Virus record (IMG/VR): IMGVR_UViG_3300025806_003155
Coordinates: 1-20,012 of that record
Strand: one strand, 5' to 3'
DNA from: a virus
DNA length: 20,012 nt
Shown here one piece after another: positions 1-18,877 of this stretch; the first letter of the stretch is position 1; each line of letters begins with the position of its first letter. Both the position numbers and the translations under genes were made by a program. The notes under the pieces were generated by a model. It had not been told where the DNA came from. It saw only the letters and a list, made by a program, of their open reading frames with translations, and searched no databases.

Positions 1-2499
1 TGAGGCGCTATTCCCTAAACTATCGGGGGCTGCGGATGTGAAGTCTCCCCTTCTTAACTTTTCTGTGTCATAAATAACGACTGTTTGCGCGTCTGGCGTA
101 TGACCACCCGTAATGGTAAAAGTTGTCTGGCCCGCCGTTGTTGTAAAAGTTTGCGACTTCGCAAGAACAAAGCGCCCCCAAACAACCGCATTTTGAGGAA
201 GATCCGACATTTGGGCAAGCAATGGATTAATCTCTAAGAACGCTTCATCAAGCTTTGCCTGAGTGGTTGAATTATTTGGTCTTGGATCGACCCCCGCCTC
301 ACTGCCTCCAACCTCGTTATTCATTGGTATTTCAGCGCCGTTTATAGAAACGACAAGACCACTTTGACCCGCTGGCCCCGTTGGCCCCTGCACATCAGCC
401 GCAACGGTTCCGTTTCCGACTGCGCTAAACCCAGAGATATTACCAGAAAAATCTTTTGCCTTGAGTTTATAGTAATGCGTTGTGTTCTGTGTAAGCCCGC
501 CATGAACAAGGCTGGTACCCGCAGATGTTCCAATCAAAGAATATGTGCCGCTGCTTGTTGTGCTATGGTGAACTTCCATAGAGGCGAAATCAGAAGGGAA
601 GCTGTATCCCTGCCACGAAACCTCTAATTGCTTTACCCCCGCTGTAACGGTTGGGGCGCTTGGGGTTGAGGGTGCGGTTGTATCAGTTACCGCAGTTGCA
701 TTGATTGTTGCATATGATCCTGAATTTTCCCGCACTGTAACCGCTCGAACCCTAAAATTATAAGTCGTTCCAGCAGTAAGAGGCTCTATTTCAATAGCAT
801 TGTTTGGAGCAATAGTTGAGGAGTAATTTGATAAACTACTTGGCTTCCATTCTACCTCATAATGCCTGAGAATTGGACTACTTACAGCATTCCAAGAAAG
901 AATTACCCTAGACATACTTGTGCCATCAGTTTGAAGGCTTGAAGCTAATGTAGTCGATAATCCAGTAATCGCTAAGTTAGATGTTGGGTCTCCTAAATTA
1001 GTATTATTCTGGGTTATCTGTTGATATTCATCAGAGCTAATTGACCATTGATAGGCTGTAGATGATGTTTCTTGGAGGGTCATGTTTACCACTGGAGCAG
1101 AACCATCCATTCCTGACATCTTCCAAGACATTACACGGAATGTTTTTCTAGCCCACCCATATCTATCAAGAGTTACTTCAACAGTATCGCCTATCTGAAC
1201 CCCAAAAGCTTTTTCTAAAGAAAAATCAGCACTGAATGTTATCTGCTCACGGCTAACAAACAAAACTTGCTTAGCTAATCTTTGAGCAGTCGCGCTATTA
1301 GTCGTAAGAGGCAACTCAAGATCAAGAATAGAAACTTCATCGTTATCTTCAGAAAGATCTGGGATTTGCTGTTGAGGGTAATCTGTAGCGATAAATCTAC
1401 CATCTGTAGAGCCATCAATAAATGTACCTCGAACAGTATTAGTTGTATCGCGCCTCGAAAGCCGCGTTGCTATACTTATATCGCTTCTAAAATCATCATA
1501 CCCAAAGGCATTAGCATTACTTACAGAAGCATCTGGTGATTTATATGCACCAGCCAAAAGCCTCCATTTACCCTGACCCCAGAAAAGCGTTCCATTCAAG
1601 GTTGTCATTAAGGTATTCAAATTTCCGCTTGGTGTTGCTCCTGTGTCAAGAACACCACCAATTTTGAATGCATTGTTTTGAACTCCTACAACACCAGTTG
1701 ACGCACAATCCGCAATAGCTGTTGCGATCATATTATCGTCAATATCTGACTGATCCGTATCCAAGCCAAGATTGCTTGTAAGATAATCCCTTATGGCAAG
1801 CGCTGGCTCGTCAGAATATTGCCATGTAGTGGGGTCATTGGTTCTGTGGGTGCCAACCCCTAGCGAATTATCGTAAGCGCTACTGGTGCTGTCTTTTCTG
1901 GGGTCATAGACTTTTTTGCCCTGTATTTTTGCAGTTACTAGAGGCATCCCATTTGGGAAGGTGTCTCTATCATATTCCAATCTTACATAAAGACAGGCAA
2001 TCCCTTGACCTTTAAAACTGCTGTTTATTTGAGTAGGTTTGTAGGTCAAAGAATTTAAAGTAGAATATACGCTTTGATTTGACGCCCCCGTAAATTTTTT
2101 AATATAAACCTTACTGTTCCACTTTGAGGTTGTAACAGTTCCATCTGACCCAGAAAACGAAACAACCTCATCATCAAGGTATATATCCCCAATACTATTT
2201 ACCTCATGTCCAGCAAGAGTAATGATCGTATGAAGATATTTATCATCGTTAGTAAGCTCCATATATGTTTTGGTGCCGCCCTTTCGGGTTTCGCCATATA
2301 TGATTTCAAAATTTGCAACAGGATCAATATTATTGTTTAGACCGCTGCCCCCACCCATCTGTGGCATCTTTGGTCGGCCCATCCCAAGAGCATTTCCAAA
2401 AACACTTGAAAGCCCATAGAGCGCAATACCTCCAACAACCGCATAGGTTATTGTTGCATATCCAGCGCCTAAGATAAGGGTTCCTGTTGTAATAGCCAT
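1..2499 (-). CDS. Tail tip / central fibre protein (gpJ-like), partial at left edge
   Basis: An uninterrupted minus-strand frame of 833 codons begins at the ATG at 2499 and is still open at base 1, so the C-terminus lies outside the window. Residues about 4-30 are hydrophobic and Gly-rich, as is common at the start of J-like tip proteins. A long beta-rich hub-like region follows to about residue 500. Two modules with fibronectin type III character come next, at about 505-600 (ending TYNFRVRAVT) and 603-700 (starting APSTPSAPTV, with YYKLKAKD). A short collagen-like stretch, GPTGPAGQSG, sits near residues 703-712. By family analogy it forms the tail tip that contacts the host surface. Its start touches the stop of the GNAT gene upstream, so the two are translationally coupled. 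I am sure it is a tail-tip-type protein. Which receptor it binds cannot be said. Confidence 0.85.
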   Translation of the reverse strand, partial: MAITTGTLILGAGYATITYAVVGGIALYGLSSVFGNALGMGRPKMPQMGGGSGLNNNIDPVANFEIIYGETRKGGTKTYMELTNDDKYLHTIITLAGHEVNSIGDIYLDDEVVSFSGSDGTVTTSKWNSKVYIKKFTGASNQSVYSTLNSLTYKPTQINSSFKGQGIACLYVRLEYDRDTFPNGMPLVTAKIQGKKVYDPRKDSTSSAYDNSLGVGTHRTNDPTTWQYSDEPALAIRDYLTSNLGLDTDQSDIDDNMIATAIADCASTGVVGVQNNAFKIGGVLDTGATPSGNLNTLMTTLNGTLFWGQGKWRLLAGAYKSPDASVSNANAFGYDDFRSDISIATRLSRRDTTNTVRGTFIDGSTDGRFIATDYPQQQIPDLSEDNDEVSILDLELPLTTNSATAQRLAKQVLFVSREQITFSADFSLEKAFGVQIGDTVEVTLDRYGWARKTFRVMSWKMSGMDGSAPVVNMTLQETSSTAYQWSISSDEYQQITQNNTNLGDPTSNLAITGLSTTLASSLQTDGTSMSRVILSWNAVSSPILRHYEVEWKPSSLSNYSSTIAPNNAIEIEPLTAGTTYNFRVRAVTVRENSGSYATINATAVTDTTAPSTPSAPTVTAGVKQLEVSWQGYSFPSDFASMEVHHSTTSSGTYSLIGTSAGTSLVHGGLTQNTTHYYKLKAKDFSGNISGFSAVGNGTVAADVQGPTGPAGQSGLVVSINGAEIPMNNEVGGSEAGVDPRPNNSTTQAKLDEAFLEINPLLAQMSDLPQNAVVWGRFVLAKSQTFTTTAGQTTFTITGGHTPDAQTVVIYDTEKLRRGDFTSAAPDSLGNSAS

Positions 2500-2948
2500 C
2501 AGAAAAGCCTCTTTGAAAATACGTTCTCAATGTGGTTATACCCTAATCTTGTCAGCAATACATCAAAGGGTTTATGAATTTTTGTATTAACAAACAGCAA
2601 TGAAACGCCATCTTGCTTTAAATATTTCTCCGCAGTCTTGAGCAAATGCCATCCCGCAAGCCCTTTTCTATAATCTGGGTGCAGATATATTACATCATTT
2701 GTAGCAAAGATATGATCCTTATAATGAAGGGATTTTGCTGTAGTAGTTACGAAATATCCAACAAGCCTTTTACCCTCTCTGGCTGTAAATATTTGAAGTT
2801 GACCAGATTTTTCAGCTTCCTCATATTGATCCCAATCAGGGTTCAGATGAATAAAGTCTTTATTTAACGCGATTTCTTGCCAGTGTGATTTTAGAAGATC
2901 TTGTATCTCCAGATATACAGAAGCAAGAAATTCTTGCTGATATTTCAT
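2499..2948 (-). CDS. GNAT-family acetyltransferase in the tail module
   Basis: This 149-aa protein has the GNAT pattern. Strand and helix segments lead to the acetyl-CoA binding motif A region, where NDVIYLHPDYRKGLAGWHLL (about residues 84-103) matches V-x-P-x-R-x-x-G-x-x-x-L. A C-terminal segment (FDVLLTRLGY) resembles GNAT motif B. It lies between two tail genes, overlapping the upstream one by 4 bp (ATGA) and meeting the tip gene at 2499, so it is made together with the tail proteins. Proteins of this kind recur beside tail genes in many phage genomes, but I know of no established substrate. It may modify a virion protein or a host target. Family assignment is firm; role is open. Confidence 0.8.
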   Translation of the reverse strand: MKYQQEFLASVYLEIQDLLKSHWQEIALNKDFIHLNPDWDQYEEAEKSGQLQIFTAREGKRLVGYFVTTTAKSLHYKDHIFATNDVIYLHPDYRKGLAGWHLLKTAEKYLKQDGVSLLFVNTKIHKPFDVLLTRLGYNHIENVFSKRLF

Positions 2949-7356: not shown

Positions 7357-7385
7357 ATTTTTATTAAATTATTTCACTTTTAGTG

Positions 7386-7414
7386 TTGACAGCTTGCTCA
7401 ATGTTAATTATATT
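7386..7414 (+). promoter_or_regulatory. Rightward promoter P1
   Basis: TTGACA (7386-7391), a 17-base spacer and TATATT (7409-7414) make a near-consensus sigma70 promoter. An AT-rich stretch lies upstream. It is the first of three related modules, followed by the coding start at 7440. Confidence 0.75.
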
Positions 7415-7417
7415 AAC
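7403..7417. promoter_or_regulatory. Candidate operator over P1 -10 box
   Basis: GTTAATTATATTAAC has perfect 6-base inverted arms, GTTAAT and ATTAAC, around a 3-base centre. It spans the -10 hexamer of P1. The identical 15-mer recurs at 7981-7995 and a one-base variant at 9204-9218. Position and repetition suggest a repressor site. Confidence 0.6.
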
Positions 7418-7439
7418 TATATAAGCAATGGAGAAAAAA

Positions 7440-7909: not shown

Positions 7910-7963
7910 GAACTAGGCGAAGTTATTACCCAAAAATAATTTTAAAATAATTAACATTTAGTG

Positions 7964-7992
7964 TTGACTTACTGCTAGGTGTTAATTATATT
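7964..7992 (+). promoter_or_regulatory. Rightward promoter P2
   Basis: TTGACT (7964-7969), a 17-base spacer and TATATT (7987-7992). Upstream AT-rich sequence (AAAATAATTAACATTTAGTG, 7944-7963) and the region after the -10 closely match P1 and P3, so the whole module of about 60 bases is duplicated. Confidence 0.72.
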
Positions 7993-7995
7993 AAC
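7981..7995. promoter_or_regulatory. Candidate operator over P2 -10 box
   Basis: The 15-base palindrome GTTAATTATATTAAC is identical to that in P1 and occupies the same position over the -10 hexamer. Confidence 0.6.
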
Positions 7996-8021
7996 TTTAT
8001 AGGCAGCAAGGGAGCAACGCC

Positions 8022-8497: not shown

Positions 8498-8806
8498 ATG
8501 AAGTACGCAAATCAAATCGGGTATTCTGACATTCATCCATATGAAGTTATAGAGCAACGCACTGAGCGCAAACTGATAATTAGGGCAATGGAAACTCTAG
8601 AGCTTGAGTGGGAGAAAGAGGTATACGCTGGCGGTTTCTCAGCGCACTTCGCAAATCAATCAGAACAAAAGTGGGATATTAAGCCTGACCAAGAAGGCCA
8701 TGTAGTATCCATCAGACAGCATAAAGATGGACATTGGTATGATACCTCAGGTGCGAGATACCGCCTGTCTGATAAACCTCGAAAATTTTATGACTATAAT
8801 TTCTGA
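8498..8806 (+). CDS. Conserved-type phage hypothetical protein, 102 aa
   Basis: The 102-aa product has a distinctive order: MKYANQIGYSDIHPYEVIEQ at the start, a short charged segment with RAMETLELEWE, then GGFSAHFANQSEQKW, and near the end HWYDTSGARYRLSDKPRKFY. I recognise this as a type of small phage protein that recurs in many tailed phages, with a beta-rich fold suggested by alternating polar and aromatic residues. No biochemical role is established to my knowledge. It sits in the P2 unit just before the winged-helix gene. Confidence 0.65.
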   Translation: MKYANQIGYSDIHPYEVIEQRTERKLIIRAMETLELEWEKEVYAGGFSAHFANQSEQKWDIKPDQEGHVVSIRQHKDGHWYDTSGARYRLSDKPRKFYDYNF

Positions 8807-8813
8807 GGTCGTT

Positions 8814-9167
8814 ATGAGAAATCCAAATCCATTTACAAGAGGCATTAAACTTATAGAAGTTTATAAAAAATATAACTCCAACAGAGTTGTATCTATGAGT
8901 GAGTATACAATATTTTTATTAATATCTGATCTGTGCGCTAACAATGCATGGGCAAGCCAAACACAAATTGCTAAATTAACTCGACTTGCGCCCAATGTAG
9001 TAAATAGACATCTTTCCACATTATCTAGTTATTCAAGAGCTAATAGTTCATTAAACCTTATTGAAATTGACATAGATCCTAATGACAGGCGTTACAGACG
9101 TTATAAGCTTACAAACAAGGGTCTAGCGCTCAGAACAGAAATGCTTGCAATAACGCAAAAATATTGA
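8814..9167 (+). CDS. Winged-helix (MarR-like) putative regulator
   Basis: The start is placed at ATG 8814, preceded by GAGGT, rather than upstream ATGs inside the previous gene. The 117-aa product has a winged-helix layout: a helix with SEYTIFLLISDLCANN, a helix-turn-helix region WASQTQIAKLTRLAPNVVNR, then HLSTLSSYSRA, a wing (IEIDIDPNDRRYRRYKLTNK) and a final helix. The wing pattern, D-x-x-D-x-R-x-x-x-Y-x-L-T-x-K-G, is typical of MarR-type proteins. It lies between promoters P2 and P3 and is a natural candidate for the protein that binds the repeated GTTA-N7-TAAC sites; this is inference. Confidence 0.7.
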   Translation: MRNPNPFTRGIKLIEVYKKYNSNRVVSMSEYTIFLLISDLCANNAWASQTQIAKLTRLAPNVVNRHLSTLSSYSRANSSLNLIEIDIDPNDRRYRRYKLTNKGLALRTEMLAITQKY

Positions 9168-9186
9168 AATAATTAACATTTTATTA

Positions 9187-9215
9187 TTGACGCTATACTG
9201 ATTGTTGATTATATT
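9187..9215 (+). promoter_or_regulatory. Rightward promoter P3
   Basis: TTGACG (9187-9192), a 17-base spacer and TATATT (9210-9215), with the same upstream AAATAATTAACATTT sequence and downstream AACTTTATAGRCAG sequence as P2. It starts the last four plus-strand genes. Confidence 0.7.
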
Positions 9216-9218
9216 AAC
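9204..9218. promoter_or_regulatory. Candidate operator variant over P3 -10 box
   Basis: GTTGATTATATTAAC differs by one base from the palindrome of P1 and P2, breaking one position of the left arm. A regulator might bind P3 less tightly than P1 and P2; this is inference. Confidence 0.5.
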
Positions 9219-9247
9219 TTTATAGACAGAAAAAATGGAGAGACTTA

Positions 9248-10346: not shown

Positions 10347-12592
10347 CTTTTCTCTTTTGACTTGAGCGGATGACCCTCTGGCAAAAGATCAGTATCAAAC
10401 TTCCCGCTCTTATAACGACCTGTTCTAACTGCACTTAAAAATACATTAACCCTTGCGTATGCCCATTGATCGGCACTCCTTACAGATGGTCTGACACTCT
10501 GGGGATTTGTATTGTACGCCCCTATCCCTCTACGAAATACAGCCTCAAGCATACGCTGAGTAACGCGCTTACCCTTTTTGTCACCATGTTTATCGTTATG
10601 ATCTTTGACCTTTTCAGCTAAACCTTTTTTGACTGCCTCAGATATTTCAGTCGGCGCTTTTTCCTCCAGCGACAAATCTTCCATAAATGGTTCCAAAGCT
10701 TCAGTCTTATCACGCTCTTTATCTAACTCCGCTGTTTTGCGATTGGCCCAAGCTTGACCTTCATCACCGCCCCAACCCAGCCAAGCGATAAGTCCAGCAG
10801 TCGGCCATCCATCTTCACCTCTGCGAAAGCCCTCTGCCCGTTTGTCTACTTCATGCCTCGCAAAAAAGCTTTTCATGCGTCGAACTGTGCTAGGAGACAA
10901 TCTTTCTTTGTTAATAAGCTGGTTTGCTCTAGCTACACCAACTCTTGTCATCCCACGCCCGTATTCCTTACGAAGATCCAATGCTCGTTGACCGTTCTTC
11001 GCCATTGCATCTGTAGGAATTGTATTTACATCACTTTCAGCTTTTTCATCATGTTCATCATCTTCATAATCCTTTTCACGATGTCTCATATCATCTGGGC
11101 TTACATAACGATCAAGATAATTCCTTTTATCATTTACTAGATCTTCATATTCAACATGAGTGTCGCAAGGCATAAATACGACCTTACCATCAACCGTATG
11201 CTGATGAGTACCAACGCATCCTATTTCTTCCGCACGGGCTGACGCTTCTTCTCTGGTTGTGTAAGTGTCTTGTCCAACCTCTGACTTGCCTTCAAAACTA
11301 CCGTAGGCTTCTTTCCCCGCGTCCTCTGGGTCTTGCCCTTCGTCTGTCGCCACTTCTGGACCACCCAATGGGAATAGGTTTGCTGCGATGAAGACTTCGT
11401 CTCCTCCTGTGATCGGCTCAAGGCCCAATCTTTCACGCGCTTCATTACGAGAGATAATTCCATCTCTAACTGCCGCAGTAACATTCTCATAAACTCTACG
11501 CCTCCGCTCTGTCATCGCTGGGATGCTGTCAATATCATAACTAATCGAAATATCGTCACCAAATGCTGGTGCAAGCCATTCGTTTAAATCGCTTTCAATA
11601 CGCTTAGCCAATGGAATGATAGTTTCCTCATACAATGCTAGTCTAGCCTCTTGAACATTCGCATATGTCTGAGCATCAGGAACACCAATAAGCTGAGACG
11701 GAATGCCAAAACACAATGCAATATCTTTAGCACTCATGTTCATTTGGGATAGGAAGTCCATATCACGAGGAGACATTCCCATTTCTTTCCAGTCAAAATC
11801 ACCCTCAAGCAATACTGGCTTTCCAGCGTTATTGACCCCTTGAAATCTTGACTGCAAATCTGATTGCAACTGCTGGCGCTGACCATCTGATAGCATAGTA
11901 CGCATTCCAGCATCATCAGCGGGTTTGAATACAATTGCACCAGAGGGTCGCGCTCCATTAGCCAATAATGCAATATTGTGCTTTGCAATCATATTGTGCT
12001 GATCAACATCAATCGAAGCCGCCATAAGTGGAGAAAGCCCAAGATAATCGTCCAGAGGATTCCACATCTTGAAATGCTTAATCTCAGATGCGCCTGTTGA
12101 TGGATCGGCTGGATAGGTTCTTATTACCTCTTGCCCAACTTTATATTTATAAGACTTTGGAATTGCAGTACTGCTTGGTTCAATCTCAATTCTATCTGGC
12201 CTAAGAACGTGTAACTCTCTTGGAACGCCGTTTATATCTGATTGAAGCGCGTATGAATTTCCAGATAGTAGAAGGTATGAGTAAAGGCTTTGGAAATACT
12301 CGACGCCAGCTTGCAATGGGTTTGGTCTTTTTAATAAAGAAATAAGCGGGTGCCTATCAAGCTTAATATCTCCTTGATAAACACAAAACGGAATACTTGC
12401 TGCCCCATTAGCAATTTCATTTACACAGCGATAAACAATAGCGTTCTGCCTATATCCTTCGTTAGCATAAGCTCTAAAGTTATCTTTACGCGCGTGGTAT
12501 GGCATAGAGGCGTTCATATACACCTGTGGCGCTTCCTTACGCTCAAGCGGCGCGTCTCTGAATAATCCCGCTATATTGTCTAAAATACCCAT
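10343..12592 (-). CDS. Portal protein (HK97 type) with long C-terminal extension
   Basis: Residues 1 to about 405 of this 749-aa protein are an HK97-type portal: YRCVNEIANGAASIPF, LLKRPNP, SLYSYLLLSGNSYAL, LRPDRIEIEP, PLDDYLGLSPL, FGIPSQLIGVPDAQTYANVQ and ERLGLEP. The portal forms the dodecameric DNA channel and binds terminase. Typical family members end near residue 400-450. The remaining 340 residues contain a Cys/His cluster (C459, H463, H465, C476, H479), a module at about 523-615 (IPTDAMAKNGQRALDLRKEY, MKSFFARHEV, WLGWGGDEGQAWA), and another at about 650-735 (VTQRMLEAVFRRGIGAYNTN, SADQWAYARVNVFL). I recognise both modules as recurrent in phage structural proteins but not their function. 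The start meets the terminase stop at 12592. Confidence 0.92.
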   Translation of the reverse strand: MGILDNIAGLFRDAPLERKEAPQVYMNASMPYHARKDNFRAYANEGYRQNAIVYRCVNEIANGAASIPFCVYQGDIKLDRHPLISLLKRPNPLQAGVEYFQSLYSYLLLSGNSYALQSDINGVPRELHVLRPDRIEIEPSSTAIPKSYKYKVGQEVIRTYPADPSTGASEIKHFKMWNPLDDYLGLSPLMAASIDVDQHNMIAKHNIALLANGARPSGAIVFKPADDAGMRTMLSDGQRQQLQSDLQSRFQGVNNAGKPVLLEGDFDWKEMGMSPRDMDFLSQMNMSAKDIALCFGIPSQLIGVPDAQTYANVQEARLALYEETIIPLAKRIESDLNEWLAPAFGDDISISYDIDSIPAMTERRRRVYENVTAAVRDGIISRNEARERLGLEPITGGDEVFIAANLFPLGGPEVATDEGQDPEDAGKEAYGSFEGKSEVGQDTYTTREEASARAEEIGCVGTHQHTVDGKVVFMPCDTHVEYEDLVNDKRNYLDRYVSPDDMRHREKDYEDDEHDEKAESDVNTIPTDAMAKNGQRALDLRKEYGRGMTRVGVARANQLINKERLSPSTVRRMKSFFARHEVDKRAEGFRRGEDGWPTAGLIAWLGWGGDEGQAWANRKTAELDKERDKTEALEPFMEDLSLEEKAPTEISEAVKKGLAEKVKDHNDKHGDKKGKRVTQRMLEAVFRRGIGAYNTNPQSVRPSVRSADQWAYARVNVFLSAVRTGRYKSGKFDTDLLPEGHPLKSKEKS

Positions 12593-13890
12593 CAGCTAAT
12601 TCTCCAAACGGCCTTGCCTGTTCTTGAGTTCAATTCTGTTAATGCCCAAACTAAAGCATCAAGTCTATCAGGCGATTTCTTAGACATTGGGGTATAAGAC
12701 GCCATCTGTTCCTCTAATTCATTAAAAGCACCAACGTGCCTTACTTTGCCTTGTTCGTATAAAGCTGCAATGGGTTCTGCCCTTACAAGCTTTCCTCTGG
12801 ATGCCCTTACCGCAGTATACGGAACATTTCTCTCTACAGTTCTTACCACTTTTTCGACTAGATCGCCACCGTTGTTTACTTCTGCGATAATCCTGTCAGC
12901 TTCAAAAGTATGATAAAGGCTAACAGCTTTCCTTGCCCATTCGTCAGGAGACCCCCGCATAGACGCATCTTGCCTAACATAAAACCTTCCATCCTCTCCC
13001 AAGCTTGCTACTATTATTCCAGTCTCATCACTTTCATCATGGCTAGTTACGGCTGGATCAATAGATATAACTGTTCTGGTATATTGAGGTTCTTCGCTTG
13101 GGTTTGCCCTATGAGTCTCAAACATCTTGTAATTCCAGAGAGCGCCCTCAAGATCATCAAGAACTTCTGCGTAAAGCTCTTGTCTACCAAGCCTTGTTCC
13201 ATCATATTTTTCTTTAAGTTGCTGCAATGCGGCGGGTGCAAGATTTGCAGCGTTATCGAATGTGCTTCCTCTAGTTACAGCAGTGTTTGTACGTTTTAAT
13301 AGGCTGCGAGTAAGATCATTAGGCTTTGGTGTAGTTGTAATAACGCATTGAGGATTTTGCCCTAAACGCAATCCAAACATTAATTGGTCAAAAGCCTCTG
13401 GATAAAACCAAGCCGCTATCTCATCACACCACGCTCTATGAAACTGAGGACCGCGCAATCTCTCTGGCTCTGTAGCGGCGAAACCTTGTATTAAAGAGCC
13501 ATTATATAATCTGATTTCCTGTGCTGATGAAGAATACCCCTGCCCCCTACCTTTCAATAAACATTCGCTTGGGAGCCAGTTCATAATTCCTGACACGCCG
13601 CCAAAAGCAACCCTTCTCAGATCTCCAAACGTAGGAACAACAACTGCACATCTGCTATTGGGGTTATTCAATGCATAAAGCATAGTATCGAAAGCGCCTG
13701 TCATAGTTTTGCCCCATCCACGACCTGCTAAAATTAACCAAACATTCCATTGACCAGATGGAGTGATTTGCTCTGGTCGAGCCATCTTTAACCAATTACT
13801 GTATAATGTGCTTTGCTGATGATGACTTGATTGCGGCAAGTTCGTCCAGTTCTGCGATAATTTCTCGTAAACTATCTGGTGCTGAGACAT
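12592..13890 (-). CDS. terL: Terminase large subunit (packaging ATPase-nuclease)
   Basis: The 432-aa protein has Walker A AGRGWGKT (55-62), Walker B ending in D156-E157 (AWCDEI), the coupling motif TTTP (185-188), and nuclease-domain acids D278 (ISIDPAV), E337 (IIAEVNNGG) and D411 (SPDRLDALVW). The short length and the W-x(2-3)-ARPEQ-x(6)-W lead-in to Walker A match the gene-transfer-agent/alphaproteobacterial terminase type. It pumps DNA into the prohead and cuts it. I keep the start at 13890, 95 bp inside the small-subunit gene, because the family lead-in residues lie upstream of the alternative Met36 and an AAGG is present. Confidence 0.95.
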   Translation of the reverse strand: MSQHQIVYEKLSQNWTNLPQSSHHQQSTLYSNWLKMARPEQITPSGQWNVWLILAGRGWGKTMTGAFDTMLYALNNPNSRCAVVVPTFGDLRRVAFGGVSGIMNWLPSECLLKGRGQGYSSSAQEIRLYNGSLIQGFAATEPERLRGPQFHRAWCDEIAAWFYPEAFDQLMFGLRLGQNPQCVITTTPKPNDLTRSLLKRTNTAVTRGSTFDNAANLAPAALQQLKEKYDGTRLGRQELYAEVLDDLEGALWNYKMFETHRANPSEEPQYTRTVISIDPAVTSHDESDETGIIVASLGEDGRFYVRQDASMRGSPDEWARKAVSLYHTFEADRIIAEVNNGGDLVEKVVRTVERNVPYTAVRASRGKLVRAEPIAALYEQGKVRHVGAFNELEEQMASYTPMSKKSPDRLDALVWALTELNSRTGKAVWRIS

Positions 13891-14416
13891 TGGCTGATAC
13901 CTTGCTGATTTCTTGTGCTTGACCCATAGCTAATTTGCCTATCTTCTGAGCCTGTGCAACCACTCCAGCGATAGAACTTAGATCATGCGCTGTCATAATC
14001 TTATTTTTTATATGAAACTTTTTAAGCTGTTCATCTCTATCAGGTCCATCAGGCAAATCTAATATGCGACTGAGCTTATCTCTGTTTTCCTGATCTTCAG
14101 TTAATCTACGCGCTACATCCCCCATCATTCCAAATGCGAGATTTATAGATCTGTCATCTAAAACAGCGCCGTTCTTGACCATCTTTTCAAGACGCTCTCT
14201 AGCAATGGCTTCCTCATACTCTGTCTGGACCTTATTCTTTTCAGACTGCCAATCTTCCTTTTTGGAATGCCTATGAAGGGTTACGTTTGGAATGTCATGG
14301 CGCTTTGCTAGAGCCATAATCGTAGGATATTGACGCACTCCATTTTCATCCATGAACCCATGAACAAACTCATCTTTGATGGTGCGCTTTAGCGCTTCTT
14401 CTAACTTGTTACTCAT
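13796..14416 (-). CDS. terS: Putative terminase small subunit
   Basis: The 206-aa protein lies directly upstream of and overlaps the large terminase gene. The N-terminal 60 residues look like a DNA-binding helix-turn-helix domain: YPTIMALAKRHDIPNVTLHR then HSKKEDWQSEK. A long helical, charged central region follows, and the C-terminus is helical (LREIIAELDELAAIKSS). This is the usual layout of small terminase subunits: HTH, oligomerisation core, C-terminal contact with the large subunit. It should recognise packaging DNA. Sequence is too variable in this family to be certain, so the call rests on position, length and HTH. Confidence 0.72.
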   Translation of the reverse strand: MSNKLEEALKRTIKDEFVHGFMDENGVRQYPTIMALAKRHDIPNVTLHRHSKKEDWQSEKNKVQTEYEEAIARERLEKMVKNGAVLDDRSINLAFGMMGDVARRLTEDQENRDKLSRILDLPDGPDRDEQLKKFHIKNKIMTAHDLSSIAGVVAQAQKIGKLAMGQAQEISKVSANVSAPDSLREIIAELDELAAIKSSSAKHIIQ

Positions 14417-14429
14417 AATCTAATCATTA

Positions 14430-15092
14430 TCACTTATTTTCACTATTTTCCAGTTCATAATTTTTCTTAATCAAAATCTGTTGTTTTGTAACCCATGCTT
14501 TCTTGTATTCAGCATCCGCAAACAGCTTTGAAAATCCAGTAATATGCTTGAGCCTTAGTAATTCCTCTGGTTCCATCCCAAGATGGTTGCATATATCCTC
14601 GTCTTTCCAGCCCTCTCCAAGCATTGAGAAAACCATATTAGCCATTCCATCTACGCTATGTGATCCTCTGGCTCTGTTATGACGAACTGTTGCCGCCATC
14701 CGTTCATTTATATCTTTCTCAATAACGACTATAGGCAACCGACCATGGTTTCGATCTTTGATGTCTTGATTGCTTTTGCATGTAAAGAACCTATGAAACC
14801 CATCTACAATAACGTATTTATCATTTTCCTGATCATAAATAGTTACGACTGGCTGAGTATATCCATCATGTTTAATTGAGGTGTAAAGAAGCTTCATTTC
14901 CTTGCCCGCAACGCTATTGGGATTGTAATCGTTAGCTTGCACCTTCTCTATTGGAACCCATTTAACTCTGTCGACTGGCTGCTGTATCGGCGTAATTTCA
15001 TGCAAAAAATCTTTGATCTTTTCCATCATGTCAATTTTTGTTTGATCATCTGTGCCATGAAAGGCTTTTTCTAACTCATGCAAAATTTTCAT
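14430..15092 (-). CDS. ibrB: IbrB-like ParB/Srx-fold protein
   Basis: I place the start at ATG 15092, which overlaps the preceding stop as ATGA; an upstream TTG at 15110 is less likely. The 220-aa protein has a ParB/sulfiredoxin-fold domain: WVPIEKVQANDYNPNSVAGK, then VIVDGFHRFFT (the ParB box, about residues 94-104) and AATVRHNRARGSH (about 133-145). A helix-turn-helix region follows (WKDEDICNHLGMEPEELLRL). This order matches IbrB, whose partner IbrA is encoded next to it here too. In E. coli IbrA and IbrB together raise expression of eib immunoglobulin-binding genes. How they act is not established to my knowledge. Co-transcribed with packaging genes. Confidence 0.78.
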   Translation of the reverse strand: MKILHELEKAFHGTDDQTKIDMMEKIKDFLHEITPIQQPVDRVKWVPIEKVQANDYNPNSVAGKEMKLLYTSIKHDGYTQPVVTIYDQENDKYVIVDGFHRFFTCKSNQDIKDRNHGRLPIVVIEKDINERMAATVRHNRARGSHSVDGMANMVFSMLGEGWKDEDICNHLGMEPEELLRLKHITGFSKLFADAEYKKAWVTKQQILIKKNYELENSENK

Positions 15093-16261
15093 ACTGTTAC
15101 TGGTATCCAATCTTTCGCTTCTGATTTCTGGACGAATTTAATATCTTTGGGTTCGCCTCTACGCCACCTTCTATAAGTAATGGCATAAGGGCTTTGTTCA
15201 AAGTTGCTGCACTTAGTAAAATCAATATCTTGTGCAAGGACTGTTGCGATATGAACTTTATGAAGCTTTGAAACGTCTTTCATAAGGCCATACTTCTCAT
15301 CCATAGCATCAAACCGCTTTCTCATTGCGTCCTGATAGGATTGATCCGTTACAAGATTGACCAGCAAATGATCTCTATATTCCTTCCAATCTTTGAACAT
15401 ATATGGAAGCTTTTTGGCTTGGAACATATCCTCTTTGGTCATGTGACGGGCTTGATTAATACCCTCTAATCGCTTGGTTAATTTATTCCATGTCTCGCGC
15501 TCTATCTCTTGAAGATAAAAAAGCTGGTGAACTGCTGTTTCATGATGAAGGTTTGAAACCCTCATTTTAGTCGGGCTTATCCCATATTGATAAAAGTAGT
15601 CATATGCTTTGGCGTATTGCCATCCATGCTCATGTATGGATTTCCAAATGTCCGTATATGACCAATCATAAAGCGGATAGAAATTGTACTGCCCGACTTT
15701 CTTATCTACAGCCTTTCCCCAAGTTATCCATTTATATGTTGCTGCCGTTGTTAAGCCCGCAAGACGAGCAGGGCTTTCCTCTGCCCTTACTCCTGCTAGA
15801 ACTGCTAATTTTTTACTGGGCCAATGATGCTTCATAATTGCTGGGAAAAGATCAAAGAACCTATCTGTGCCGTATATATTCTCTGTTATGGCGAAATCTT
15901 CCTTTGGTCTCATCCAATCTTCGTCATCACCTTCTGTCCAGCAATGCAGAAAATGCTGATCATTCGACGTCGAGTTAGTCATGCGAATTGGCATCTGAAA
16001 CCACATAGGATCTACACGGGGATCTGTCATAACATCTCTGACGTAATCTATTACGTTCTGCCACTCAGCTTCTTGATCTAAGAACATGACCTTAAGCGGA
16101 AGCCTGTTTCGCTTCTCAGCGACCATCATGGCAAGCTGGAATGTTACTGTGCTATCCTTCCCACCTGAGAATGAAACAACAACATCCTCAAACTCATCAA
16201 ATATATACTCTATACGCTCTAAGGCTGCATCCCATACATTTTGTTTAACGTAAATTTTCAT
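15089..16261 (-). CDS. ibrA: IbrA-like PP-loop (PAPS reductase-family) protein
   Basis: The 390-aa protein has an N-type PP-loop, VVSFSGGKDSTVTF, with SGGKDS at 32-37, followed by LKVMFLDQEAEW (56-67) and the conserved LAGVRAEESPAR (155-166), as in PAPS reductases and related adenylating enzymes. The C-terminal half (FYPLYDWSYTDIW, GISPTKMRVSNLHHE) matches the DUF3440/IbrA branch. I see no ECGIH-like C-terminal catalytic Cys motif of true PAPS reductases, so sulfonucleotide reduction is unlikely. It probably binds ATP and activates a substrate by adenylation. It overlaps the GNAT gene upstream and the IbrB-like gene downstream by 4 bp each, which makes a joint function with IbrB likely. Confidence 0.85.
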   Translation of the reverse strand: MKIYVKQNVWDAALERIEYIFDEFEDVVVSFSGGKDSTVTFQLAMMVAEKRNRLPLKVMFLDQEAEWQNVIDYVRDVMTDPRVDPMWFQMPIRMTNSTSNDQHFLHCWTEGDDEDWMRPKEDFAITENIYGTDRFFDLFPAIMKHHWPSKKLAVLAGVRAEESPARLAGLTTAATYKWITWGKAVDKKVGQYNFYPLYDWSYTDIWKSIHEHGWQYAKAYDYFYQYGISPTKMRVSNLHHETAVHQLFYLQEIERETWNKLTKRLEGINQARHMTKEDMFQAKKLPYMFKDWKEYRDHLLVNLVTDQSYQDAMRKRFDAMDEKYGLMKDVSKLHKVHIATVLAQDIDFTKCSNFEQSPYAITYRRWRRGEPKDIKFVQKSEAKDWIPVTV

Positions 16262-16635
16262 AGCTCTAATATTAACTTTCTACCGCTGCACTTATATTCA
16301 ATCCCAGTAGGTTGGAACCCAAACTTCTTAGTGAAAAGAGAAGATTTAGACGTGGTTTCGATTGATTTGATACCCAAGGTCATAGCATAGCGTATTAATG
16401 TATGAGTTAAGAATGATGCAACGCCACCCTTACGAAAGGCAGTTTTAACATACAAATGATTTAATCTACCTTTGTTTTTTCCTAAAATCCTTAACGCAAC
16501 ACATCCTGCAATATTACCACCCATATCAGCGCAAAACCAAATCATATTCTTTCCGTCATGAAACTCTACAATACCTCTGTCATCCTCATTTTGCAGATGC
16601 TTAATTTCATTGAATTTACAGGTGCGGAATTTCAT
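16258..16635 (-). CDS. GNAT-family acetyltransferase of the cassette
   Basis: This 125-aa protein has a recognisable GNAT core: the beta4 strand and motif A are in LNHLYVKTAFRKGGVASFLT (about 58-77), with R-K-G-G-V-A the acetyl-CoA pyrophosphate loop. A helix with LIRYAMTLGI follows, then SSLFTKKFGFQPTG, the usual C-terminal GNAT strand. It is near the minimum GNAT length. Both ends overlap neighbours by 4 bp (ATGA). The substrate is not evident. Within the cassette it could acetylate a modified base, a sugar or a protein; this is inference. It is unrelated in sequence to the second GNAT gene at 2499-2948 beyond the family motif. Confidence 0.78.
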   Translation of the reverse strand: MKFRTCKFNEIKHLQNEDDRGIVEFHDGKNMIWFCADMGGNIAGCVALRILGKNKGRLNHLYVKTAFRKGGVASFLTHTLIRYAMTLGIKSIETTSKSSLFTKKFGFQPTGIEYKCSGRKLILEL

Positions 16636-17306
16636 ATCTCTAAATGCAAATCGTTTGCGCTGTTTCTGATTTTAAGATTAAGAGCTTCAAATGATTGATC
16701 TACAGAGGCAATGCTTTTTGTATCTCTTACTACTGAACCTATCGAAGATGGTGTGCCAAGAGTAGATTTTACGCTGAGATCATGACGTGCGAAACTATGA
16801 CAGAGAGTTACAATTCTCTTTTTATATTTCTGAGCGGCAAATCTAAACCTTACCTCATCGTGATATTTTGCTTTTGCTCTATCAATAAGCTCGTTGCATT
16901 CTATTACATCTTGAGCGAAATCAGGCGAAATCATATAAAACTGCGCCCATAAAAAATTGTTATCATTAAACCCATCAAAACCCTTTTCAGATATTTCTTG
17001 GAACTCTTTTCTTGGAGGGGTAAATAAGCTTATTAATCCTATTGGGTCTGCCAAGTGACCTTTCAAAACATTTATGTGAGCATCTATCGCTGTAGGCAAT
17101 GGCTTGATGTCATCTTGAGCAATCAAACAAATCTCAGTTCCCGATGCTATAACCGTTAATGCTTGCAAGGTATTGAACCACGGCCCCTTATACTCATGAT
17201 CAATATGTATTGTTATTTGATCTATAGATTTACAGAGAGAAAACGAGTGGACTAGGCGTCTAAGGGGCGCTGATCTATCTGGAACTGTAATTATGTGAGC
17301 CTTCAT
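16632..17306 (-). CDS. Glycosyltransferase-like protein (GT-A type)
   Basis: The 224-aa protein starts with strand-turn segments typical of nucleotide-sugar binding: AHIITVPDRSAPLRRLVHSF. SGTEICLIAQDDIKPLPTAI (about 55-74) then places QDDI where GT-A enzymes carry the metal-binding DXD motif at the end of a hydrophobic strand. Later features fit too: FLWAQFYMISPDFAQDVI, YHDEVRF (148-154) and IVTLCHSFARHDLSVKSTLG, which recalls the His/Ser-rich C-terminal segment of small glycosyltransferases. Overlaps of 1 bp and 4 bp join it to its neighbours. A role in glycosylating DNA or a protein is plausible but not shown. The glycosyltransferase call is moderate. Confidence 0.6.
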   Translation of the reverse strand: MKAHIITVPDRSAPLRRLVHSFSLCKSIDQITIHIDHEYKGPWFNTLQALTVIASGTEICLIAQDDIKPLPTAIDAHINVLKGHLADPIGLISLFTPPRKEFQEISEKGFDGFNDNNFLWAQFYMISPDFAQDVIECNELIDRAKAKYHDEVRFRFAAQKYKKRIVTLCHSFARHDLSVKSTLGTPSSIGSVVRDTKSIASVDQSFEALNLKIRNSANDLHLEI

Positions 17307-17611
17307 TATTTAAGAGGCTCCTTTGGTTTCCTTATATCTTCACGCTCTCTGTTAAATATTTTGCTGTTATTAGGATCGTCTGACATGATCCAATATCTCC
17401 ACCCATCAAGATAATAATAGTTGCGAGGCTTTTTGAAAAACTGCTGTTCTATGCCATGCTTTTTGATCATATGAGCAGTCCATGTAAACTCCTCTTTGCT
17501 TTCCCATGTGTCTCCAACAGTGTAAAAATGCGGCATCCAAGGCATGGTTTTTGCAAATTTATATTTAGCTGATCTCAAATTTTCGTTTAACCGCTCTATC
17601 TCATTACTCAT
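17306..17611 (-). CDS. Aromatic-rich 101-aa protein, methyltransferase-associated type
   Basis: The 101-aa product is rich in Trp, Tyr and Phe: KFAKTMPWMPHFYTVGDTWE, EEFTWTAHMIKKHG, NYYYLDGWRYWIMSDDPN, then a charged tail ending REREDIRKPKEP. This pattern, MPH-x-Y-T plus a G-x-x-Y-W-x-M turn, resembles small domains I associate with phage methyltransferase proteins, but I cannot name its function. The gene overlaps the methyltransferase gene upstream by 8 bp and meets the glycosyltransferase-like gene at one base, so it is part of the coupled cassette. Confidence 0.6.
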   Translation of the reverse strand: MSNEIERLNENLRSAKYKFAKTMPWMPHFYTVGDTWESKEEFTWTAHMIKKHGIEQQFFKKPRNYYYLDGWRYWIMSDDPNNSKIFNREREDIRKPKEPLK

Positions 17612-18155
17612 TAAATTTCTCCTGCAACTTTTGAGCGCGACCAGGGTTTAATTCAGCCGCAACAATATCAACTCCCCATCCATCCATAATTTTAGAGGTT
17701 ATCCCAAGGCCAGCGAATGGTTCAAATATACATGAGGGATTATGGTGCTTGATCGCCAGTTCCAGAACATCGAAGCCATTTATGGCTTTTTTGGGTTGTG
17801 GCAAATCTGAATTAAACTGCAATACGCAGAATGGCTGTTTAGTTGTTTGATAGCCAAAGATCTTACGAACAAAGTCAAATCCATGATCTCTACCTATATT
17901 AATAACTCTCTCAAACCCCTTCTTCCCATACTCTATAAAGGTAGGCTTTCCAGATGGTGCAAGCTCGAATAGACGGGATATGATATCATCAATATCATTC
18001 TTAGGCGGCGTATATCCCTTCTTACGCATATCCGTTTCAAACCACTTTACCATCCTATTTTCCCAAGGTGGATCTGTATAGGTCATATCGCACTCATCTG
18101 CGTAGTCAGATGGTAAGCTAAGAATGTCAGAAACTTGGAATTTTCTAAGAGGCAT
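17604..18155 (-). CDS. Short DNA-methyltransferase-like protein
   Basis: The 183-aa protein has the catalytic motif IV DPPW at 28-31 (MTYTDPPWENR), usual in N6-adenine and N4-cytosine methyltransferases. Motif I, the SAM-binding FEPFAGLG (144-151), lies near the C-terminus, followed by VAAELNPGRAQKL. Motif IV before motif I is the permuted, beta-class order. A separate target-recognition domain is not apparent and the protein is shorter than usual, so partner proteins may supply specificity. The ParB-like protein encoded immediately upstream, overlapping by one base, is a good candidate because such domains are fused to methyltransferases in other phages. Whether it acts on DNA needs testing. 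Confidence 0.75.
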   Translation of the reverse strand: MPLRKFQVSDILSLPSDYADECDMTYTDPPWENRMVKWFETDMRKKGYTPPKNDIDDIISRLFELAPSGKPTFIEYGKKGFERVINIGRDHGFDFVRKIFGYQTTKQPFCVLQFNSDLPQPKKAINGFDVLELAIKHHNPSCIFEPFAGLGITSKIMDGWGVDIVAAELNPGRAQKLQEKFNE

Positions 18156-18730
18156 TATCTGCCACCAAATGTAAATTCTTCACCGCAATGGGGGCATATA
18201 ACATCTGTTGTTTGTTGTGGCTGCAATCTACTACTTTGATCGTTTTGCATAGACTGATCAGCCTTTATCATCTTACCTTCGTCAATCTCTGAGGCATCAA
18301 AACTAGGCTCATATACTGGATTGAAATTGAATGCTGACATATCAATATCAACGCCCATCAAGGTCAAATCGTATCCATCATTACTCATTTCCTTTAGCTG
18401 GTTAAAATACTCATTAGTATCCCACTCCCCATTCTCAGCTAATTTGTTGTCCGCAATGACATAAGCTTTCTTCTGTTGCTCAGTCCAGCCTTCCGCTCTA
18501 GTGCATGGGACTTCTGAGATCCCAAGCTTTTTAGCTGCAAACAATCTACCATGACCCGCTATAATTTGATCATTTTCATCAATGAGGATTGGCATGGTCC
18601 AACCCCATTCTCTAATACTATTAGCAAGTTGATCAATTTGTGTATCGGGATGGATCTTTGGGTTTCGATCATATGGTACAAGATCATCTACTGATTTGAT
18701 CTCAATTTTATTTGCGGCCCAATTTTGCAT
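18155..18730 (-). CDS. ParB-like nuclease/Srx-fold protein with C-terminal CxxC
   Basis: The 191-aa protein begins with a ParB/Srx N-terminal domain: VDDLVPYDRNPKIHPDTQID, GWTMPILIDENDQIIAGHGR (the GHGR box at 59-62), FAAKKLGISEVP, and AYVIADNKLAENGEWD. The C-terminal third is less ordered and ends with ICPHCGEEFTFGG (C179, C182), half of a zinc-ribbon. This domain is commonly fused or adjacent to DNA methyltransferases in phages. It is the first gene after the promoter at 18753-18781, with a strong AAGGGAG ribosome-binding site. It is distinct from the IbrB-like ParB protein at the other end of the cassette. Confidence 0.82.
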   Translation of the reverse strand: MQNWAANKIEIKSVDDLVPYDRNPKIHPDTQIDQLANSIREWGWTMPILIDENDQIIAGHGRLFAAKKLGISEVPCTRAEGWTEQQKKAYVIADNKLAENGEWDTNEYFNQLKEMSNDGYDLTLMGVDIDMSAFNFNPVYEPSFDASEIDEGKMIKADQSMQNDQSSRLQPQQTTDVICPHCGEEFTFGGR

Positions 18731-18752
18731 AATAACTCCCTTTGTTTCTTAT

Positions 18753-18781
18753 TTTATAAAGAGCGTGAATAGATTTATCAA
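18753..18781 (-). promoter_or_regulatory. Leftward promoter for the modification/packaging operon
   Basis: On the minus strand TTGATA (18781-18776), a 17-base spacer and TATAAA (18758-18753) form a good sigma70-type promoter. It lies between the upstream terminator and the ParB-like gene at 18730. No later minus-strand promoter was noticed before the portal, so this may drive the whole run to 10343. Confidence 0.65.
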
Positions 18782-18793
18782 TACTCTTAGTTA

Positions 18794-18843
18794 AAATAAA
18801 AAACCCGTCCTCATCGCAGTGCGTATCCTAGCCAGAGAACGGG
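18794..18843 (-). terminator. Rho-independent terminator after the replication genes
   Basis: On the minus strand CCCGTTCTC (18843-18835) pairs with GAGGACGGG (18812-18804) as a 9-bp stem with one G-T wobble. A long loop contains a small inner GCA/TGC stem, and TTTTTTATTTT follows. It lies 35 bases past the stop of the 130-aa gene and separates replication from the next operon. Confidence 0.75.
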
Positions 18844-18877
18844 AAGTATTGAGGTAAAGTGCCTAAGCATTTTTATA

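Follow-up and report, generated by a model that had tools for sequence, protein, structure and literature searches.

Described systems closest to the IbrA/IbrB cassette

Carboxymethylcytosine in Synechococcus phage S-B43 is made by the CmoA/CmoX/CmoY system, which combines a maker of an S-adenosylmethionine (SAM) analogue, a transferase of the methyltransferase fold and an adenylating ligase, often together with a ParB protein (PMC12783734). This system, in which a handle is put on the base and then elaborated, is the nearest published logic to that proposed here for a seven-gene cassette in the IMG/VR virus record IMGVR_UViG_3300025806_003155, whose entire 20,012 nt were analysed and are called the window. 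The cassette consists of seven minus-strand open reading frames (ORFs) at positions 14430-18730, all present as described in an initial annotation, and encodes in order a ParB-like protein (ParB1), a methyltransferase (MTase), a small protein, a glycosyltransferase-like protein (GT), an acetyltransferase (GNAT) and the proteins IbrA and IbrB. We consider, with a probability of about 0.6, that it represents a modular post-replicative system for the hypermodification of phage DNA with an IbrA/IbrB core, where both the DNA substrate and the chemistry are deduced from the genes.

The key enzymes of the cassette and of the CmoA/X/Y system are non-homologous as far as seen. CmoX belongs to the C5-cytosine enzymes and CmoY is homologous to asparagine synthetase, whereas the cassettes have DPPW amino-methyltransferases and an IbrA with a PP-loop of the CysD/PAPS-reductase type (PAPS, 3'-phosphoadenosine 5'-phosphosulfate), and GT, GNAT, dioxygenase-like and small domains lie outside the published system (PMC12783734). 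The window proteins gave no match to families of the CmoA/X/Y type in Pfam or NCBIfam, a direct comparison with CmoA/X/Y not having been made. The PP-loop of IbrA is also related to DndC, SspD and BrxP of the phosphorothioation systems DndBCDE, SspABCD and type-4 BREX, and many Dnd loci have the ParB-family protein DndB, as the cassette has ParB-family proteins, but the conserved cysteine dyad of DndC is not found in IbrA. By eye and with Pfam, dedicated models not being used, no cysteine desulfurase, DndD or DndE was recognised among the cassette ORFs, although a host desulfurase could serve, and no PglZ was recognised among the cassette families. The resemblance of IbrA to the Dnd/BREX type-4 PP-loop enzymes, and the report that some ParB/Srx proteins nick DNA (PMC12839542), could also point to a phage-borne system of modification and restriction (superinfection) in which a ParB-fold protein serves as nickase; this is very unlikely, since the cassette has no recognisable nuclease family and a conserved restriction gene was not noted among the operon ORFs examined.

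Three further systems share parts with the cassette. In the ParB-DNA-methyltransferase fusions (phrog_498 and PADLOC MTase_II), ParB1 corresponds to the N-terminal domain and the MTaseC family to the part after it, so that what is one protein there is two genes within a larger set here. Mu Mom and GNAT-based DNA acylation have in common with the cassette a GNAT-fold phage enzyme that possibly modifies DNA, but the cassette GNATs match generic acetyltransferase families and accompany IbrA/IbrB, and no Mom match was returned. IbrA and IbrB of E. coli are homologous to the cassette pair and share its arrangement (Escherichia phage PhiR5_2), but have no small, GT, MTase or GNAT neighbours.

Recurrence of the gene set in viral loci

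Scans of IMG/VR with IbrA yielded loci including L002-L056 and L088-L167. Family profiles were built from the first locus set and then run on all loci; loci used in the profiles supply about half of the evidence, while the second set lies mostly outside profile building. After clustering at 90% and requiring a close IbrA and flanks, 54 independent loci remained. A ParB-family gene stands beside IbrA in all 54 and the small domain is present in 43, whereas the other enzymes vary: GT is found in 25 loci (plus the GTC family in 5), MTase in 15 (plus the MTaseB family in 6), GNAT in 15 and a dioxygenase-like gene, absent from the window, in 10. Fifteen different non-empty combinations occur. The fixed core thus consists of IbrA and IbrB, to which a second ParB-like protein and the small domain are usually added, and the group-transfer enzymes are exchangeable. 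All seven families occur in locus L121, in the order ParB1-small-GT-MTase-GNAT-IbrA-IbrB and with an IbrA of 47% identity, and six of the seven, without GNAT, occur in L007 in a different order. The initial annotation would have been contradicted by homologues that are rarely found together; instead, the 54 independent loci all derive from recurrences of the set, some with the genes ordered differently, a cultured phage has it as well, and it exceeds chance because its co-occurrence is conserved in unrelated phages. The position ahead of the terminase, noted there too, is common, the terminase large subunit gene (terL) being at most 3 kb away in 33/54 loci. We also rejected the idea that this terminase lineage has the cassette as a constant component, as the annotations of CRP-6, Mae-JY09 and Strzyga name no counterpart beside the terminase (their hypothetical proteins were not scanned).

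Among cultured and named phages, Microbacterium phage Hendrix has two GT-family genes, a small-domain protein (E 9e-9, annotated as a methyltransferase), a GNAT and IbrA at the end of its genome, and three ParB genes followed by the terminase region at the start; it was the only match to the GT of L017 among 50,697 phage records. The arrangement ParB-IbrA-ParB lies beside the terminase in Mycobacterium phage Compostia and Arthrobacter phage Wheelbite. Moreover, parts of the cassette are fused in other loci. The small domain is fused to a class I SAM-dependent methyltransferase in L034, L041, L100, L102, L106, L130 and L138 (by sequence, with Pfam for a subset), to GNAT in L037, to SET in L091 and L093 (Pfam 2e-9 and 2e-8) and to SpeD in L096 (5e-11), and L125 has a fusion of GT with IbrA (38% identity to the GT of L010, E 1e-33). 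Stand-alone SpeD-like genes are present in L036, L091, L093, L125 and L127. These fusions tie the cassette parts to each other.

The E. coli IbrAB proteins have been described as activators of the prophage eib genes (Sandt 2002, cited in PMC10434257), which together with the high gene turnover at the site would suit a pair of prophage transcription co-activators next to a hot spot for unrelated moron genes. We hold this to be clearly improbable, considering that the same few enzyme families keep recurring, that none of the tailoring families is confined to the outer flanks in the 54 loci, and that enzymes are fused to the core or shared domains (small, IbrA).

Exchange of enzymes between near-identical phages

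The window and locus L009 share 91.5% DNA identity over 4240 b downstream from the IbrA start codon (16261), while upstream of it there is no alignment; in that part of L009 lie a different GT and an unrelated methyltransferase gene, the latter in the slot that GNAT takes in the window. In the same way, L012 and L013 are 92.7% identical until ParB1 ends and 95.0% identical from the IbrA start, and between the two genes L012 has small-GT-MTaseB and L013 small-GT-dioxygenase-like. L035 and L049 differ in a single gene (MTase versus GT) between adjoining flanks of 93-94% identity, and L030 and L031 are 92% identical from IbrA onward with different enzymes ahead of it. Furthermore, the gene directly upstream of IbrA has changed at least 24 times on the IbrA tree. 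The tailoring enzymes are therefore swapped as alleles at gene boundaries. These comparisons rest on metagenomic contigs, any single one of which could be chimeric, but the recurrence of the breaks at gene boundaries argues against chance chimeras.

Identity of the core and tailoring proteins

IbrA (15089-16261, minus strand) is a PP-loop ATPase with the PAPS_reduct (8e-16) and DUF3440 domains and matches phrog_2302 (4e-85), and its core partner IbrB (14430-15092, minus strand; start taken as the ATG at 15092 rather than the TTG at 15110) has a ParB/Srx fold (ParB_N 6e-6; phrog_2159 1e-72). Thus a PAPS_reduct + DUF3440 protein adjoins a ParB-family protein, as expected of an IbrA/IbrB pair. 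The Pfam match and the PHROG and GenBank annotations would make IbrA a true PAPS reductase (CysH) of sulfur assimilation with unrelated neighbours. However, the SGGKD PP-loop is kept in 127 of 128 full-length IbrA relatives, the ECGLH-type catalytic motif of CysH in 0/128, and across 22 diverse IbrA proteins no cysteine is invariant (best column 18/22); the closest solved relatives by sequence in PDB are CysD and FAD synthase. The label "PAPS reductase" therefore looks wrong, and we rejected it on the motif evidence as hardly credible. Against the defence models of PADLOC, IbrA matched BrxP (2e-9), DndC (3e-6) and SspD (6e-5).

ParB1 (18155-18730, minus strand) has a ParB/Srx domain (ParB_N 4.9e-6) and a C-terminal zinc-ribbon-like CxxC stretch, and belongs to a type known from fusions with DNA methyltransferases. 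The N-terminal parts of ParB-DNA-methyltransferases match it much better than ParB_N does: it hits phrog_498 (DNA methyltransferase, 4e-44) and the N-terminal part of PADLOC MTase_II (2e-32). It also matches phrog_620 (7e-52), and the MTaseC family matches phrog_498 past the ParB domain (2e-5). The two ParB/Srx proteins, the acetyltransferase and the PP-loop enzyme named in the initial annotation are thus borne out by ParB_N twice, GNAT, and PAPS_reduct with DUF3440. Its methyltransferase and possible glycosyltransferase, both without a Pfam match when the window proteins were searched singly, gained support from their families and from a predicted fold. In the alignment of the family of the MTase (17604-18155, minus strand), DPP, GxG and ExN are invariant, and DPPW precedes an FxGxG-type motif I, that is, motif IV stands ahead of motif I as in the beta class; 10 of 12 family members match N6_N4_Mtase of Pfam. 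By motif order and family, the window MTase is probably a beta-class amino DNA methyltransferase.

The GT (16632-17306, minus strand) is predicted to be a small GT-A-fold glycosyltransferase-like protein with a DxD-like motif. Its AlphaFold2 model (pLDDT, the predicted local distance difference test score, 82) has 107 fold matches in PDB at E≤1e-3; those among the matches listed are for the most part enzymes that transfer glycosyl or nucleotidyl groups, and collagen hydroxylysine transferase folds are among them. Its family shows weak Pfam matches to Glyco_transf_25 and GT2, and has an invariant D66 within QDD/EED, in an acidic DxD-like motif. The small protein (17306-17611, minus strand) is a conserved core domain of 101 aa with no assigned function. 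Its AlphaFold2 model is confident (pLDDT 93), and a fold search returned no PDB match at E≤1e-3 and one viral model in BFVD. It was found in 0 of 398 genomes of one phylum, an empty result that is weak evidence. Profiles of the small and dioxygenase-like families gave nothing convincing against the sequences of solved structures. In the dioxygenase-like family, HxD and a distal H are invariant in the alignment, and no match by sequence was obtained in Pfam, PHROG or PDB. A tblastn search of the window MTase, small protein and GT against 50,697 GenBank phages gave no match, and their relatives were obtained solely through IMG/VR and profiles. The GNAT (16258-16635, minus strand) is an acetyltransferase (Acetyltransf_1 3.5e-10; weakly phrog_1249). 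A second acetyltransferase gene lies beside the tail genes of the window (2499-2948, minus strand; phrog_1249, 4e-11).

A probable link to DNA and a proposed mechanism

The membership of ParB1 in ParB-DNA-methyltransferase fusion families and the proximity of IbrA to BrxP, DndC and SspD support a link to DNA. An SNF2-type helicase that adjoins IbrAB in Flavobacterium and Streptococcus phages was counted toward this link as well; such a helicase stands beside IbrA/IbrB at L169 (3243-4454), L172 (2761-3999) and L137 (3996-5258), in a different branch of the IbrA family. The most likely role of the cassette is to decorate the DNA of its own phage, which would conceal it from the defences of the bacterium. 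The enzymes would be brought to phage DNA by the ParB proteins together with the split ParB/DPPW-methyltransferase pair, the PP-loop of IbrA might adenylate a base or a base-attached group to which a nucleophile is then joined, and the small domain may present or recruit the substrate. The handle could then be decorated by the exchangeable methyl-, acetyl- and glycosyl-transfer enzymes, and in some phages by dioxygenase-like or SpeD/SET-derived chemistry, and the variation of these enzymes among phages would permit escape from host restriction. Since several of the exchangeable families are known elsewhere to act on amines or amino acids, the handle might, at a guess by analogy, be amine- or amino-acid-like. 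Considering the position of the cassette and its likely co-transcription with the terminase, the DNA could be modified around packaging.

Several points weigh against this assignment. GNAT, GT, SET and SpeD domains act on proteins or small molecules too; the roles of the small domain, GT and dioxygenase-like protein are predictions, the last from an HxD...H motif alone; and some phages, such as E. coli PhiR5_2, have IbrA/IbrB alone, so that the tailoring enzymes are optional. TilS-type PP-loop enzymes work on tRNA. The cassette might thus modify a side chain of a host or phage protein, tRNA or another RNA, or a nucleotide signal, in anti-defence or host takeover. SET, GNAT, SpeD and GT25-like families commonly act on proteins, amino acids and polyamines, the closest solved relative of the SET domain in PDB is BurB (8e-20), a free-methionine methyltransferase, and in Pseudoalteromonas phage XCL1123 a gene for ectoine synthase (EctC, 2e-35; L173, 5305-5697) sits between IbrA and a ParB gene. 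On the other hand, ParB1 and MTase belong to DNA-methyltransferase families, the SNF2 helicase stands beside IbrAB in other phages, the cassette is often next to the terminase, and allele swapping fits what is expected of anti-restriction; a target other than DNA is therefore unlikely, in our opinion. A role in surface polysaccharide (serotype conversion) was set aside, as the cassette parts are small proteins that fusions link to IbrA and the small domain, and MTase and ParB fall in DNA families.

Gene layout and other features of the window

All six junctions of the seven-gene set overlap, as the initial annotation stated, by 1, 8, 1, 4, 4 and 4 bp from ParB1 to IbrB. That annotation also took the set for a unit with its own promoter. 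Upstream of ParB1, the minus strand at 18735-18877 folds strongly (RNA fold z = -4.4) and contains a terminator-like hairpin and then a promoter-like TTGATA-17-TATAAA at 18781-18753; the latter was picked out by eye and is absent from the list of a consensus promoter scan, and a promoter of the cassette itself is plausible. IbrB is separated by only 13 bp from the probable terminase small subunit gene (13796-14416, minus strand; weak PHROG matches, conserved beside TerL in related loci), and no terminator was found between them. Hence the cassette is probably transcribed on into the packaging genes, including that of the terminase large subunit (12592-13890, minus strand; identified by tblastn matches to terminases with annotation, for instance 48% with Roseobacter phage CRP-6), rather than being a closed unit. 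Of the earlier proposal of DNA modification or anti-defence by a separate unit, the link to DNA is supported, while the separate unit is not.

Elsewhere in the window, a 64-nt element occurs three times (7364-7427, 7942-8005 and 9165-9228; 70-100% identity among copies), contains TTGAC and a TTAATTATATTAA-like stretch, and looks like a promoter/operator module repeated ahead of small genes on the plus strand; positions 8727-9167 hold a gene that resembles transcriptional regulators. At 1-2526 on the minus strand, an 842-codon frame runs off the left end, and its fibronectin-like and collagen-like (GPTGPAG) stretches point to a probable large tail protein, truncated where the contig ends.

Implications

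A wider proposal is that the cassettes belong to an undescribed and widespread class of DNA hypermodification, in which IbrA installs an amine or amino-acid handle and swapped methyl-, acetyl-, glycosyl-, hydroxyl-, aminopropyl- and sulfonium-derived enzymes diversify the DNA chemistry of related phages; we advance it tentatively, as a possibility with somewhat less than even odds. The set was undescribed in the literature searched, which, consisting of open-licence PubMed Central papers only, gives weak evidence. If modification of DNA by the cassette is true, it would provide a function for a new small domain and for IbrA/IbrB, whose only known role for more than two decades has been that of prophage co-activators. 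It would also mean that near-identical phages swap whole sets of DNA-decorating enzymes, which would directly indicate an arms race. As Microbacterium phage Hendrix is in culture, the idea can be tested now. Moreover, cysH has been reported as a globally conserved viral auxiliary gene and interpreted as sulfur cycling (PMC9301287), and the PAPS_reduct + DUF3440 proteins found here, without the CysH motif and in modification cassettes, bear on the ecology of viruses with cysH. If the novel hypermodification class is real, some of the viral 'cysH sulfur-cycling' genes would be misread members of it.

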